Assembly (NCBI GenBank): GCA_016791365.1
Contig: JAEUMT010000050.1
Span: 1-37,097 of the forward strand
DNA length: 37,097 bases
Source: Hyphomonadaceae bacterium
Lineage (GTDB): Bacteria; Pseudomonadota; Alphaproteobacteria; Caulobacterales; Aquidulcibacteraceae
Reading direction: 5' to 3'
Shown: in pieces, positions 3,149-18,027 of the stretch
Position numbering within the stretch: the stretch's first letter is position 1
How the letters are laid out: every line of letters begins with the position of its first letter
Made by a program: the position numbers and the translations under genes
The notes under the pieces: generated by a model
What the model saw: only the letters and a program-made list of their open reading frames with translations
What the model was told of the DNA's origin: nothing
Databases searched by the model: none

Positions 3149-3154
3149 GACCTG

Positions 3155-3273
3155 CTCGCCCTTGATGGGCGAGTTGTCAGCGCGCGACGCGCGATGCCTG
3201 AGTGGGTGACGGCTCAGGTCTGAGGAGACACTACTCCGGCCGCTGCGCGTCCAACCCGCCCATCAAGGGCGAG
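3155..3273. repeat. Structured palindromic element between convergent gene ends
   Basis: Arms of 15 bases, CGCCCTTGATGGGCG at 3157-3171 and its exact reverse complement at 3257-3271, bound a segment with its own palindromes: CGCGCG either side of 3187, and CCTGAG/CTCAGG at 3197-3202 and 3213-3218. Each outer arm can also fold on itself (CGCCC/GGGCG). The element fills the gap between the 3' ends of pdeM and the DUF3429 gene. It could act as a two-way transcription stop, or be a miniature mobile element; no U-tract favours the former. Confidence 0.55.
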
Positions 3274-3284
3274 GAGAAGAAACC

Positions 3285-13647: not shown

Positions 13648-13871
13648 TGAGCGATCGTCTCGATCTCACGACGCGGCTTGAGCAGAAGATTGCGCTGCGC
13701 GCGCGGCTTGACGCACGCGTCCGCGATGAAAGCGCCGATGAACCGGCTGCCGCCGCAGATCCTGCCGCGCTAAAGGAAATGGATGAAGATCTTGATCGTC
13801 TGCGTCACCAGATCAGCACGCTCGATGTCGAGATCGCCGAACTGGAGCGCGAGCTCGCCGACGGCGCATGA
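13647..13871 (+). CDS. Small coiled-coil protein, function unknown
   Basis: The 74-residue, highly charged product is mostly heptad-patterned helix (LEQKIALRARLDARV near the start and a second coil from about residue 45). I know no function. It is translationally coupled to osmC by a TGATG overlap, which supports a real gene. It ends just before the repeat element that precedes the thiolase gene. Confidence 0.65.
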   Translation: MSDRLDLTTRLEQKIALRARLDARVRDESADEPAAAADPAALKEMDEDLDRLRHQISTLDVEIAELERELADGA

Positions 13872-13963
13872 ATTTACCGCGCTTTGCTCAGCCCGGGCGA
13901 AGCGGTCAGCGGAGTAGGCGGCAACGCCACGGGACGACTCCGGTCCCACGGAGGGTGTCGATG

Positions 13964-14065
13964 CTTCCCACGTGTGGGGAGCTGTCGAGCGAAGCGAGAC
14001 TGAGGGGCGCGTCGACGCGCCCCCTCCGTCGCCTTCGGCGACACCTCCCCCGCAGAGCGGGGGAG
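13964..14065. mobile_element. Inverted-arm hairpin repeat, probable non-autonomous relative of the DUF559 element
   Basis: Two inverted arms meet at a perfect 20-base palindrome (14004-14023). The right arm has CCCCTCCGTC, hairpin 1 (GTCGCC/GGCGAC, 14028-14033 and 14037-14042), ACAC, then hairpin 2 with a 9-bp stem (14045-14053 and 14057-14065). The left arm is the same plan inverted: hairpin 2' at 13964-13981 and an imperfect hairpin 1' at 13984-14000, then GAGGGG. The arms match those bounding the DUF559 gene at 15329-15794 in order, spacing and orientation. The segment 13872-13963 before it holds no gene, only further short palindromes such as GGGAC/GTCCC at 13931-13947. Confidence 0.7.
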
Positions 14066-14086
14066 ATGAAGAGTGGAGTGAAGAGA

Positions 14087-15301
14087 ATGGCTGAGGCCTA
14101 TATTTATGACGCGGTGCGCACGCCGCGCGGCAAGGGCAAGGCGAACGGCTCGCTGCATGAGCAGACGTCGCTGCAATTGGCGACGCAGGTGCTGCAGGCA
14201 ATCCGTGATCGCAACAACCTCGACACCTCGAAAGTCGATGACGTTTACATGGGCGTGCTCTCGCCGATCGGCGAGCAGGGCGGCAACCTGCCGCGCATCG
14301 CCGTGCTCAATGCCGGCTACGCGCAAACCGTCGCCGGCGTGCAGGTCGAGCGCTTCTGCGCCTCGGGCCTTGAAGCCTGCAACATCGCCGCCGCGAAAGT
14401 GAAATCCGGCGAAGCCGAACTCGCCATTGGCGCCGGCTGCGAAAGCATGAGCCGCGTGCCCATGGGCTCGACCGGCGGTTCGTGGGCCACCGATCCGTCG
14501 ATCGCGATGAAATCCTACTTCACCCCGCAAGGTGTCGCCGCCGACGCCATCGCCACCAAGTATGGCTTCTCGCGCACTGATCTCGACAATTACGCCGTGC
14601 AATCGCAACAGCGTGCGGCGCGCTCCTGGAAGGAAGGCCGATTCAAGAAGTCGATCGTGCCGGTGAAGGACCAGCTCGGCGTCACACTGCTCGACCACGA
14701 CGAATTCATGCGTCCGGAAACGACGCTGCAATCGCTCGGCGCGCTTGAGCCGTCATTCAAGGTGCAAGGCGAAGTGATGCCCGGCTTCGACGGCGTCATT
14801 CAGCAGCGCTATCCGGAAATCGAGAAGATCGATCACGTCCACCACGCCGGCAACTCGTCCGGCATCGTCGACGGCGCCGCGGGCGTACTGATCGGCACCA
14901 AGGAAATGGGCCAAGCGCTGGGCCTCAAGCCGCGCGCGCGCATTCTCGGCGGCGCCTCGATCGGCTCAGAGCCGTCAATCATGTTGACGGGCCCCGAGCA
15001 CGTCACCGCGAAACTGATGAAGAAGCTCGGCCTCAGCAAGCAGGATATCGACCTTTGGGAGCTCAACGAAGCTTTCGCGGCTGTCGTGTTGCGTTGGGTG
15101 CAAGCGCTCGATCTCGACATGGAGAAGGTCAACGTCAATGGCGGCGCCATCGCGATGGGACACCCCATCGGCGCCACCGGCGCGATGATCCTCGGCACCA
15201 TGGTCGATGAACTCGAACGCGCCGACAAGGAACGCGCGCTCATCACGCTCTGCATCGGCGCCGGCATGGGCACCGCAACCGTGATCGAACGCGTGAACTG
15301 A
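14087..15301 (+). CDS. Acetyl-CoA C-acyltransferase (thiolase), FadA/FadI type
   Basis: This 404-residue thiolase cleaves 3-ketoacyl-CoA to acetyl-CoA and a shortened acyl-CoA. The nucleophilic Cys91 lies in VERFCASGLEACN; GGAIAMGHPIGATG carries the active-site His and CIGAGMGTATVIE the second Cys. I choose ATG 14087 because homologous sequence begins there; an in-frame ATG at 14066 lies in the edge of the hairpin element. The stop overlaps a following ATG as TGATG, now used by the inserted DUF559 frame. It acts as the last step of the pathway formed with the flanking dehydrogenase and FadJ-type genes. Confidence 0.93.
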   Translation: MAEAYIYDAVRTPRGKGKANGSLHEQTSLQLATQVLQAIRDRNNLDTSKVDDVYMGVLSPIGEQGGNLPRIAVLNAGYAQTVAGVQVERFCASGLEACNIAAAKVKSGEAELAIGAGCESMSRVPMGSTGGSWATDPSIAMKSYFTPQGVAADAIATKYGFSRTDLDNYAVQSQQRAARSWKEGRFKKSIVPVKDQLGVTLLDHDEFMRPETTLQSLGALEPSFKVQGEVMPGFDGVIQQRYPEIEKIDHVHHAGNSSGIVDGAAGVLIGTKEMGQALGLKPRARILGGASIGSEPSIMLTGPEHVTAKLMKKLGLSKQDIDLWELNEAFAAVVLRWVQALDLDMEKVNVNGGAIAMGHPIGATGAMILGTMVDELERADKERALITLCIGAGMGTATVIERVN

Positions 15302-15328
15302 TGAAGGAGCGCGGCGACGCCCCGTTTT

Positions 15329-15371
15329 CTTCCCCCGTAAACGGGGGAAGTGTCCCCGCGAACGCGGGGAC
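15329..15371. repeat. Left inverted arm of the DUF559 element
   Basis: Two perfect hairpins lie in tandem: CTTCCCCCG/CGGGGGAAG around TAAA (15329-15350) and GTCCCCGCG/CGCGGGGAC around AA (15352-15371). They are followed by GATGGGGGC, which contains the likely ATG of the DUF559 gene at 15373. Reverse-complemented, this arm aligns with the right arm at 15743-15794: GCCCCC, a GTC...GAC hairpin, AC(A/C)CT, then a CCCCCG-rich hairpin. Hairpin stems differ in sequence between arms but still pair. Confidence 0.8.
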
Positions 15372-15372
15372 G

Positions 15373-15816
15373 ATGGGGGCGCCGCCGCGCATCCGTTTGC
15401 AAGAGGGCGCCTCACGCATTCTGGCTCGTAAATTGCGGAAGCAACTTACAGACGCAGAAACGATCCTGTGGTCGAGGCTTCGCAGCAAGCAGCTTGATGG
15501 TCTGAAATTCAGACGGCAGCACCCGATCAAAGCGTATGTGGCGGACTTCGCTTGTATCGAAGCGCGCCTGGTCGTCGAAGTCGATGGCGCAACGCATTCA
15601 ACCAACGAAGAGCGTGAGCACGACGCAACGCGTACTCGTGTCCTAAATCGTGAAGGCTGGCGCGTTGTTCGCGTGTCGAACGCCGACGTCTACAAAAACC
15701 TTCACGGCACGCTCGAACTGATTTCGCGTAGCGCCCGCTGCGCCCCCTCCGTCCCGGACTACGTCCGGGACACCTCCCCCGTAAACGGGGAAGGAAAGAA
15801 CAACTGCGAGGAATAG
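15373..15816 (+). CDS. DUF559 family Vsr-like endonuclease-fold protein inside an inverted-arm element
   Basis: The 147-residue product (from ATG 15373; ATG 15301 would add 24 repeat-encoded residues) contains the DUF559 core at about 17-118: ARKLRKQLTDAETILW, LKFRRQHPI, YVADFACIEARLVVEVDG and WRVVRVSNADVYKNL. DUF559 is related to the Vsr/PD-(D/E)XK nuclease fold. Candidate catalytic residues are Glu29, Asp58, Glu69, Asp71 and His75. The last 28 or so codons are read through the right hairpin arm and are probably not functional. It interrupts a beta-oxidation operon between thiolase and FadJ-type genes, with no metabolic link to them. It most likely belongs to a mobile or repeat-processing element. 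Biochemical activity of the family is, to my knowledge, not established. Confidence 0.85.
   Translation: MGAPPRIRLQEGASRILARKLRKQLTDAETILWSRLRSKQLDGLKFRRQHPIKAYVADFACIEARLVVEVDGATHSTNEEREHDATRTRVLNREGWRVVRVSNADVYKNLHGTLELISRSARCAPSVPDYVRDTSPVNGEGKNNCEE
15743..15794. repeat. Right inverted arm of the DUF559 element
   Basis: GCCCCCTCC is followed by the hairpin GTCCCGGAC/GTCCGGGAC (15751-15759 and 15763-15771, loop TAC) and by a second, imperfect hairpin CCTCCCCCG-TAAA-CGGGGAAGG (15773-15794). The arm overlaps the 3' end of the DUF559 reading frame. It has the same orientation and plan as the right arm of the element at 14020-14065. Confidence 0.8.
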
Positions 15817-15819
15817 GGT

Positions 15820-18027
15820 ATGGAAAACTTCAAAATCGACGTCGACAGCGACGGCATCGCGCTCATCACGTTCGACGTGCCGGGCCGCTCCATGAACACC
15901 ATCACCGGTTCGGTGATGCGCGATTTGATCACGCTCGTTGAGACGCTGAAGTCCGACGACAAGATCAAAGGCGCCGTCATCACCTCCGGCAAGACGACCG
16001 GCTTCTGCGCCGGCGCCGATCTCGGCGAACTCAATCAGCGCGGCGCCGCCAAAGAAGAAGCGCCGAAGTCGGAAGAAGAGCGCCTGAAAAAGCAATTCGA
16101 TCAGAGCTTCACGCTCAACCGCTCACTCCGCGCGCTCGAAACCAACGGCAAGCCGGTGGCTATTGCGCTCGAAGGTCTAGCCCTCGGCGGCGGTCTCGAA
16201 ATCGCGCTCGCGTGTCACTATCGCGTTGCTGCCGACAATCCGAAGATCAAGTTCGGCCTGCCTGAATCAAAAGTCGGCCTGTTGCCCGGCGCCGGCGGCA
16301 CGCAACGTCTGCCGCGTCTCATCGGCGTGCAGAACGCCGCGATGATGATCCTGCAAGGCGCTGATAAGTCGCCGCAGGAGGCAAAGTCACTCGGCTTCAT
16401 CAACGAAGTCGTTGAGCCAGGCAAAACCGTCGAAGCCGCGAAGGCGTGGGTGAAGGCCAACCCGAAGGCGATCGCGCCGTGGGATGTCAAAGGCTACAAA
16501 GTCAAAGACGGCCCGTTCACGCCAGGCGGCGCGATGGCGGCTGTCGGCGGCAACGCCATGGTCTCCAAGCAGACCAACCTCAACTATCCCGCGCAGCGCA
16601 ACATTCTCTCCTGCATCTATGAAGGCATGCAGGTGCCGATCGACGCCGCGCTCCGCATTGAGTCACGCTACTTCATCAAGACCGCCAACACGCCGCAAGC
16701 GAAGGGCATGATCCGTTCGCTGTTCGTGAACATGCAAGCGCTCGGCAAAGGCGGAAACCGCCCCGAAGGCATCCCGACCTACGACATCAAGAAGGTCGCC
16801 GTCATCGGCGCTGGCCTGATGGGCGCGGGCATCGCCTACGTACAAGCCAAAGCCGGCATCGAAACGGTGCTGCTCGATGTCAGCCAGGAGAGCGCCGAGA
16901 AGGGCAAAGCCTACTCGCAGCGCATCGTCGATAAGGACATCTCGCGCGGCAAGATCACCAAAGAGAAGGGCGATGCGCTGCTCGCTCTGATCACGCCGTC
17001 CACCGACTACTCGCTCATCAAAGGCGCTGACCTCGTCGTCGAAGCCGTGTTCGAAAACGTTCAACTGAAAGCCGACGTCACCAAGAAGGCCGAAGCCTTC
17101 CTCGGTGAAAACGCCGTCTTTGGCTCCAACACCTCGACGCTGCCGATCACCGGTCTCGCCGAAGCGTCAGCGCGTCCGAAGAACTTCATCGGCATCCACT
17201 TCTTCTCGCCGGTCGAGCGGATGGGTCTCGTCGAACTGATCATGGGCAAGGAAACGACGCCGGAAACGCAAGCCAAGGCGATCGACTACGTCATCAAGAT
17301 TCGCAAGACGCCGATCACCGTGAATGATTTCCGCGGTTTCTACACCTCTCGTTGCTTCGGCACCTATCCGGCCGAAGGCGTCGAGATGCTGATGGAAGGG
17401 ATCGCGCCGGCGATCATCGAAAACGTCGGCCGCCAATGCGGCATGCCGATGGGCCCGCTCGAAGTGTCCGACTCTGTCGGCCTCGATACCGCGCTGAAAA
17501 TCGGCAAGACCAACGCCGAACTCAATCAGCAGGACTACAAGAAGGACCCGCGCGCCGGCATGCTGTCATGGCTCGTGGAAGAAAAGGGCCGCGTCGGCCG
17601 CAAGGGCGGCAAGGGCTATTACGAGTATGGCGAAGACGGAAAGCCAACCCGCATCTGGCCTGGCATCTCCGAGCGCATCGAAGTGAAAACCAAAGAGTGC
17701 CCGCCTGAGTTGAAGACCGAACTCACCAAGCGCTATCTCTTCCGCCAATGCATCGAAGTGGCGCGCTGCTTCGAAGAAGGCGTGATCACCGATCCGCGCG
17801 ACGCTGACGTCGGCTCGATCCTCGCCTGGGGCTTCGCGCCATATTCAGGTGGCTGCATCAGCTACATCGACCTCTTCTGGGGCACCAAGAAGTTCGTCGA
17901 AGAAGCCGATCGTCTCGCCGACACCTACGGCGAACGCTTCCGCCCGAACAAACTCCTCCGCGACATGGCCGCGAAAGGCGAGACCTTCTACGACCGCTTC
18001 GGCGCCAAGACGAAGGTCGCGGCATAA
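15820..18027 (+). CDS. FadJ-type enoyl-CoA hydratase / 3-hydroxyacyl-CoA dehydrogenase fusion
   Basis: This 735-residue bifunctional protein carries out hydration and NAD-dependent oxidation in beta-oxidation. Residues about 1-300 are the crotonase domain, with oxyanion-hole segments around VITSGKTTGFCAGADL and LALGGGLEIALACH and the catalytic Glu region GLPESKVGLLPGAGG. A Rossmann motif VAVIGAGLMGAGIAY starts near residue 325. The dehydrogenase catalytic His is in FIGIHFFSPVERM, followed by the helical C-terminal domains. GAGG at 15808-15811 is its ribosome-binding site, retained just past the DUF559 element. It is the last gene of the operon and ends at the terminator at 18033-18058. Confidence 0.93.
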   Translation: MENFKIDVDSDGIALITFDVPGRSMNTITGSVMRDLITLVETLKSDDKIKGAVITSGKTTGFCAGADLGELNQRGAAKEEAPKSEEERLKKQFDQSFTLNRSLRALETNGKPVAIALEGLALGGGLEIALACHYRVAADNPKIKFGLPESKVGLLPGAGGTQRLPRLIGVQNAAMMILQGADKSPQEAKSLGFINEVVEPGKTVEAAKAWVKANPKAIAPWDVKGYKVKDGPFTPGGAMAAVGGNAMVSKQTNLNYPAQRNILSCIYEGMQVPIDAALRIESRYFIKTANTPQAKGMIRSLFVNMQALGKGGNRPEGIPTYDIKKVAVIGAGLMGAGIAYVQAKAGIETVLLDVSQESAEKGKAYSQRIVDKDISRGKITKEKGDALLALITPSTDYSLIKGADLVVEAVFENVQLKADVTKKAEAFLGENAVFGSNTSTLPITGLAEASARPKNFIGIHFFSPVERMGLVELIMGKETTPETQAKAIDYVIKIRKTPITVNDFRGFYTSRCFGTYPAEGVEMLMEGIAPAIIENVGRQCGMPMGPLEVSDSVGLDTALKIGKTNAELNQQDYKKDPRAGMLSWLVEEKGRVGRKGGKGYYEYGEDGKPTRIWPGISERIEVKTKECPPELKTELTKRYLFRQCIEVARCFEEGVITDPRDADVGSILAWGFAPYSGGCISYIDLFWGTKKFVEEADRLADTYGERFRPNKLLRDMAAKGETFYDRFGAKTKVAA

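Follow-up and report, generated by a model that had tools for sequence, protein, structure and literature searches.

A DUF559 nuclease gene and its flanking triplex-type repeats as the probable parts of one mobile-element system

In the genome of a Hyphomonadaceae bacterium (GCA_016791365.1), a gene of the family DUF559 lies between two groups of hairpins in inverted orientation, which raises the question of whether gene and hairpins belong together and, if so, how the protein acts on the repeats. The stretch of DNA analyzed here, referred to as the window, comprises 37,097 nt (contig JAEUMT010000050.1, positions 1-37,097). A preliminary description made from its sequence had suggested that DUF559 proteins recognise such hairpins and mobilise or process them. 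The following features of the window are relevant:

3152 to 3274 (about), no strand assigned: inverted pair without a gene, with stems of the L001 type (GGGCGAG), of which 35 hairpins are present in the home genome
13963 to 14065, no strand assigned: inverted pair without a gene, with repeats of the kind that forms the arms, upstream of the thiolase gene in the same gene cluster
15329 to 15350, plus strand: left arm, hairpin A (pyrimidine arm, loop, purine arm)
15352 to 15371, plus strand: left arm, hairpin B (sequence variable, pairing ability conserved)
15372 to 15383, plus strand: left arm, G-rich tail, candidate third strand, containing the likely start codon
15373 to 15816, plus strand: DUF559 gene, 147 aa from ATG 15373, Vsr/EDxHD-like nuclease according to Pfam, fold and conserved residues
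15740 to 15750, minus strand: right arm, tail, inverted (delimited by reading; the scanner places the motif at 15743-15794)
15751 to 15771, minus strand: right arm, hairpin B, inverted
15773 to 15794, minus strand: right arm, hairpin A, inverted

The unit is located between a thiolase gene and the next gene, which starts at 15820. Rechecking of sequence and positions confirmed that the DUF559 gene lies between inverted two-hairpin arms, an arrangement of two motifs that was found in none of 200 dinucleotide shuffles of the region 15301-15830, and that the hairpin B stems are unlike each other in the two arms while each is self-complementary. Together, the arms form a 31-nt inverted repeat with 84% complementarity, and both tails face the gene. 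The likely start codon had been placed two bases past the left hairpins and was corrected to one base past hairpin B, within the tail; an in-frame ATG further upstream at 15301 would read through the left arm as well. As described before, the reading frame crosses the right arm, ending at the TAG codon at 15814-15816. Terminal inverted repeats, a feature of insertion sequences and MITEs, are thus present in the unit, and DUF559 is the only gene between them, with no known transposase. A search of the region 13800-16000 against Rfam revealed no structured RNA. Overlooked in the preliminary description were the mirror-image tail, the two gene-less pairs in the window and the fact that the repeat kind is already known.

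The window protein was assigned to DUF559 by Pfam (PF04480; 4.4e-36, 123.5 bits against a curated cut-off of 20.6), with MTES_1575 as the only other matching family. In a profile search, the DUF559 structure 3hrl (2.7e-35) was followed by 3r3p (1.5e-5) and Vsr (0.64). The same order was obtained by a fold search with a model predicted by AlphaFold2 (pLDDT 75.6 on average and mostly 80-92 in the core blocks), in which 3hrl was followed by 3r3p (2.7e-4, TM 0.78 by target length) and, more weakly, Vsr. 3r3p is described as the catalytic domain of the homing endonuclease I-Bth0305I, and EDxHD enzymes as mechanistic relatives of restriction-type metal nucleases, in the accessible part of the source (PMC3943268). 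Judged by the predicted model, the closest characterised fold beyond the DUF559 structure itself is therefore that of I-Bth0305I, and then that of Vsr. Five columns (D, E, D, H, D) show no or almost no variation in sets of 30 and 12 sequences, and the residue match made here indicates a similar conserved E, D, H, D set in I-Bth0305I. DUF559 differs from this enzyme in lacking the long DNA-binding extension, in its association with dispersed repeats and, in the present case, in its location outside an intron. Vsr and VsrA share the nuclease superfamily with DUF559, whose fold is nevertheless nearer to 3hrl and 3r3p than to Vsr, and we know of no tie of Vsr to repeats.

In antiparallel purine-motif DNA triplexes, the third strand is the mirror of the purine strand, and T is tolerated as third base over C:G. 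The G-rich tail of the arms mirrors the purine arm of hairpin A. Both window arms pass a relaxed scan, and the left arm also a strict scan, for the combination of a purine 3′ arm and an antiparallel third-strand tail, which is the criterion for the intrastrand-triplex repeats known as PIT/TM; on the basis of their sequence, the arms are assigned to this kind. Potential intrastrand triplex (PIT) elements were reportedly described by Hoyne and Maher in about 2000. They were later studied as TM_ECO by Holder et al. (2015), whose paper, as far as its text was accessible, gives 23 copies in E. coli and an occurrence in E. coli plus over 260 genomes, with unknown purpose (PMC4666352). According to the same text, the E. 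coli motif forms a triplex in vitro and no stable triplex in vivo, it had neither promoter nor terminator activity in an earlier study, and no mobility activities were found in the gene contexts of TM motifs (Holder et al., PMC4666352). A text search of this paper for DUF559, ycjD and endonuclease gave no hit. The described elements (PMC4666352, accessible part) share with the arms the hairpin and mirror tail, the inverted pairs, the intergenic location, the high copy number and the instability between strains. They differ in that no enzyme was known for them. The present analysis describes a variant with hairpin B and a third-strand position at which C is met by T.

The third-strand rule was tested by leaving out each position and anchoring the alignment by the other seven, the rule itself having served to find the motifs. 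In the fetched loci, G in the stem was met by G in the tail in 1945 of 2016 cases, A by A or T in 556 of 570, C by T in 54 of 65 and T by C or G in 34 of 40. Repeated copies are included in these numbers; when each distinct sequence is considered once, C was met by T in 12 of 20 cases. Almost no elements were found in shuffled sequence. Among 225 hairpins B, 201 distinct sequences were counted, with a mean stem of 5.1 bp (3.0 bp after shuffling) and at least 5 bp in 137 of them, so that the stem is retained while its sequence changes, as expected from the proposed covariation. The structure recognised is probably the hairpin together with the third strand, not hairpins alone.

The association between gene and motif was analyzed with the relaxed scan, covering about 400 bp on either side of DUF559, and with the strict scan, covering 350 bp. 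With the relaxed scan, a motif could be found beside 140 of 154 pooled DUF559 loci from several phyla and on both sides of 92 of them, compared to 8 of 147 distal windows and 5 of 154 shuffles. The possibility that most homologues lack hairpins, which would have spoken against the preliminary description, is at odds with this result. GIY-YIG genes of the same taxonomic family, used as control genes, had a motif at none of 26 loci (4 of 30 with short flanks were dropped). With the strict scan, a motif was detected near 33 of 37 loci in the family, 25 of 28 in the class and 25 of 26 in the phylum, whereas distal windows gave 6, 0 and 1 and shuffles 1, 1 and 0, respectively. These loci represent the best-scoring DUF559 matches, to which lower-scoring ones were added from several genomes; short or fragmentary loci were dropped (3 of 40, 2 of 30 and 1 of 27, respectively, as well as L195).

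Ten full DUF559 copies and one fragment are present in the home genome. All ten full copies have a motif in the relaxed scan, eight of them on both sides, and the strict scan over 400 kb of this genome revealed 45 motifs compared to 2 in the shuffle. Further copies were checked with the strict scan in G071 (7 of 8 with motif), G033 (5 of 7), G309 (4 of 5) and G034 (6 of 7), which includes most of the copies of each genome, and the same scan was positive for 10 of 13 other copies, for 10 of 13 contigs matched by the window protein and for 6 of 8 plasmid copies from Deinococcus, cyanobacteria and alphaproteobacteria. Outside Pseudomonadota (Geobacter, Chloroflexi, Bacteroides and relatives, Pleurocapsa, Uhrbacteria, Omnitrophota), 8 of 11 loci carry the motif by strict scan, and the three misses belong to Flavobacteriales. 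For 14 of the 154 loci the relaxed scan gave no motif; L186, with a long divergent frame, and L188 look bare, and several others show imperfect or AT-rich motifs by eye. The claim that DUF559 genes and hairpin arms belong together is thus borne out in the home genome and in several phyla, and the two are very probably partners.

Furthermore, the arms are specific for the individual copy, and each DUF559 copy has its own stem type. In five multi-copy genomes, left and right arms of the same unit are closer to each other than arms of different units (mean distance 0.60 versus 1.41), a match that none of 5000 permutations reached. The stem type also follows protein relatedness. At 68 of 140 loci, the nearest other protein (below 80% identity, same-site pairs removed) shares an identical 8-nt stem, compared to a mean of 15.9 and a maximum of 29 in 300 permutations. 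L001-type pairs were observed in G033, where this stem occurs at none of the eight DUF559 copies, and in G035, where one of three copies was viewed, which suggests gene loss or cross-use.

At the level of whole genomes, the number of hairpins of one type was correlated with the number of DUF559 genes in 60 genomes of the family (Spearman 0.64; 0.56 within the genus). The median was 4 hairpins in the 13 family genomes without DUF559 and 35 in the 47 genomes with it. Exceptions are G052 and G011, with 37 and 36 hairpins and no DUF559, and G031, with 62 hairpins and one DUF559 gene. Among 249 genomes of the phylum, at least three copies of another hairpin type were found in 48 of 62 genomes with DUF559 and in 10 of 187 without, where presence is defined by a best match with an E-value below about 1e-10 and 24 genomes with weaker matches are counted as without. 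The 10 genomes without full DUF559 have at least five hairpins each, and 9 of the 62 DUF559 genomes have none of the type counted. Since the genomes are related, p-values overstate their independence.

The spread of unit and repeats was followed by comparing occupied, gene-less and empty sites. Among 25 genus genomes, the window site carries the DUF559 unit in four (the home genome G000, G048, G034, G038), with arms visible in each, G034 having only the right part in view. A gene-less inverted pair is located there in G056, G043 and G044, and only the left arm, ahead of another gene, in G051. A short gap with neither is present in nine genomes and other sequence in seven, and G059 is unclassified. 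The site is therefore not always occupied, and no gene without arms was seen at it, contrary to what the preliminary description had named as evidence against its reading. At the ssb site, compared between G000 and 23 other genomes, the unit is found in G000, G037 and G050, and other motif-like sequence was noticed by eye in G056, G046 and G049. The stem type of this unit, L001, also forms gene-less pairs of 120-129 bp (six measured). Of its hairpins, the home genome contains 35; the close relatives G032, G045 and G048 contain none, which indicates that the repeats themselves spread.

For empty sites, the joined flanks of six gene-less pairs were compared with six relatives; L249 is not among the aligned junctions. 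The element is absent in relatives at L242 (four relatives), L245 (three) and L247 (three), while other short spacers are present at L256 and the picture at L244 is mixed. Empty sites for gene-less pairs are thus found in relatives. No clean target duplication was seen: insertion ends are blurred by divergence, and a possible 9-nt duplication is present at L242 only, with no clear one at the other sites. Gene-less pairs with facing tails amount to 68 unique sequences with a median of 130 bp, compared to 15 pairs with outward tails (count not made unique). Because facing tails predominate, the DUF559 unit resembles such a pair with a gene in its spacer. A fixed rule that joins a C-foot arm to a G-foot arm lacked support overall (29 observed versus 24.9 expected in 68 pairs); in the L001 type, most complete gene-less pairs appear by eye to be mixed C-foot/G-foot.

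We propose that DUF559 and the flanking motifs are probably two parts of one mobile-element system, in which DUF559 would recognise, cut and spread the repeats. Each arm consists of hairpin A, in some cases hairpin B, and a tail that matches the purine strand of hairpin A as antiparallel third strand, and may fold when the DNA is single-stranded or extruded as a cruciform. DUF559 would then recognise a folded arm whose stem type is its own and cleave the DNA at or near it, and subsequent repair or copying would spread the unit with its gene, whereas gene-less pairs of about 130 bp may be spread in trans. That DUF559 represents a class of mobile-element enzymes recognising intramolecular triplexes in the ends, and with this the missing enzyme of PIT/TM, is a further step that would give triplex DNA a natural function and for which we see the chances as evenly balanced.

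The proposed system works like RAYT/REP with unrelated parts. In both, an enzyme gene is flanked by inverted palindromic repeats that are dispersed as well. In RAYT/REP(IN) and TIRYT systems, too, a small gene for the enzyme sits between inverted repeats belonging to it, and in RAYT/REP(IN) gene-less pairs are dispersed and the repeat type follows the enzyme (PMC3733652, in part; see also PMC8266576, PMC3116915). In the work of Di Nocera and co-workers, repeats flank both RAYT and TIRYT genes, and a G-rich motif, GGGGWSAS, is shared by some of the TIRYT inverted repeats (PMC3733652, in part). The parallel drawn in the preliminary description therefore holds for function and fails for the enzyme, which is a HuH tyrosine transposase in RAYT and TIRYT and a Vsr/EDxHD-like nuclease here. 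Membership in RAYT/REP was rejected because neither enzyme class nor tag fits: Pfam gave no HuH (Y1) match, the fold is of the Vsr/homing type, and the GTAG tag is absent from the feet of the window hairpins, while GTAG or its complement occurs at the foot of hairpin A in 9 of 232 nearest motifs. CGTC-tagged REPs have no known enzyme, an 8-9 bp stem starting with A and T and a CCA tail, according to the accessible part of PMC3733652. CGTC marks the tail junction of 31 of the 232 motifs, and the stems of the window arms lack the initial A and T of those REPs. Hairpin B of each window arm also has CGTC or its complement at its foot, near 15369 and 15750, respectively. None of the known element classes tested fits the system.

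The main rival to a two-part mobile element is a homing-type selfish gene, in which DUF559 cuts repeat-like sites and inserts its own gene by repair, gene-less pairs being remains or by-products. We consider this unlikely. It is consistent with the similarity in fold and sequence to 3r3p, with stop codons within some DUF559 copies and with the gene taking the place of the spacer of a gene-less pair, the hairpin of the nearest motif being on the outside in 90 of 115 upstream and 85 of 117 downstream cases. It accounts less well for the window site, where among the 21 genomes lacking the unit 16 have neither repeats nor gene, four have repeats only and one is unclassified, and for a gene-less stem type that is abundant at home and missing from three close relatives. 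A role in DNA repair, with DUF559 as a Vsr-like very short patch nuclease and the repeats as fragile or tolerated insertion spots, appears improbable, even though a relationship of DUF559 to PD-(D/E)XK is described in the accessible part of PMC1189080 and Caulobacter VsrA, a DUF559 protein, is reported as responsible for an SOS response in a methylase mutant and assigned to mismatch repair in that of PMC12907096. Copy-specific arms and the stem-protein correlation are not predicted by it, nor are the 0 to 11 DUF559 matches per genome within one genus or the lack of repeats in most gene-less genomes.

That the motifs are terminators, spacers or recombination-prone repeats gathering small genes, among which DUF559 hitch-hikes, would agree with the ordinary hairpins in the same intergenic gap of some relatives and with motifs found away from DUF559. 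We regard it as very improbable, since GIY-YIG genes are not flanked and distal windows seldom contain the motif, arms match within units and follow the protein, and the E. coli motif reportedly lacks promoter and terminator activity (PMC4666352, accessible part). The distal-window, shuffle and GIY-YIG controls likewise led to the rejection of ordinary terminators as a full explanation. Least probable of all is that HuH tyrosine transposases (RAYT or TIRYT) move the repeats and DUF559 is incidental. This idea draws on the inverted repeats flanking TIRYT genes, some with GGGGWSAS (PMC3733652, in part), and on three Y1 matches in the home genome. In the 249 genomes, however, hairpins are unrelated to Y1 (31 of 144 genomes with Y1, 27 of 105 without, p 0.45), so HuH transposases were discarded as general mover, while DUF559 predicts hairpins with Y1 (24 of 28) or without a Y1 match (24 of 34), and hairpins occur in 7 of 116 genomes with Y1 only. 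At Y1 loci, the motif was found in 1 of 19 cases by strict and 0 of 19 by relaxed scan (11 of 30 loci with short flanks were dropped).

In a search of the open-access literature, from which subscription papers are mostly missing, no paper linking DUF559 or ycjD to these repeats was found; the parts are each known, and their pairing, its generality and the proposed function appear to be new. If the two-part mobile element is real, an orphan nuclease family found across phyla and a repeat without a purpose would explain each other, a class of mobile elements with a Vsr/EDxHD nuclease would exist outside the known transposase groups, and triplex-forming DNA would gain a biological partner. It would also bear on the reading of DUF559 proteins such as Caulobacter VsrA. 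E. coli K-12 offers a direct test of the idea, since it carries both ycjD, a DUF559 protein gene (L042), and the 23 motifs (PMC4666352, accessible part). By eye, the 3′ side of ycjD shows two motifs, one imperfect and located at the stop codon, the other intact and further along, and the 5′ side a long hairpin of a different, AT-richer kind. Other E. coli lineages carry an efflux operon in the ycjD slot, according to the accessible part of PMC12817139.

Some further observations were made at individual loci. Weak DUF559 matches in frames of 1500-2000 aa (G071, G119, G136 and others) are probably a related domain in large proteins. On Deinococcus plasmids (L192, L193, L194), DUF559 units are located at differing places within paa and hpa catabolic clusters, with tails outward and hairpins inward, opposite to the window. 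In an Omnitrophota contig (L209), the unit lies inside an apparent ribD gene (by eye), the first part of which is repeated past the unit.
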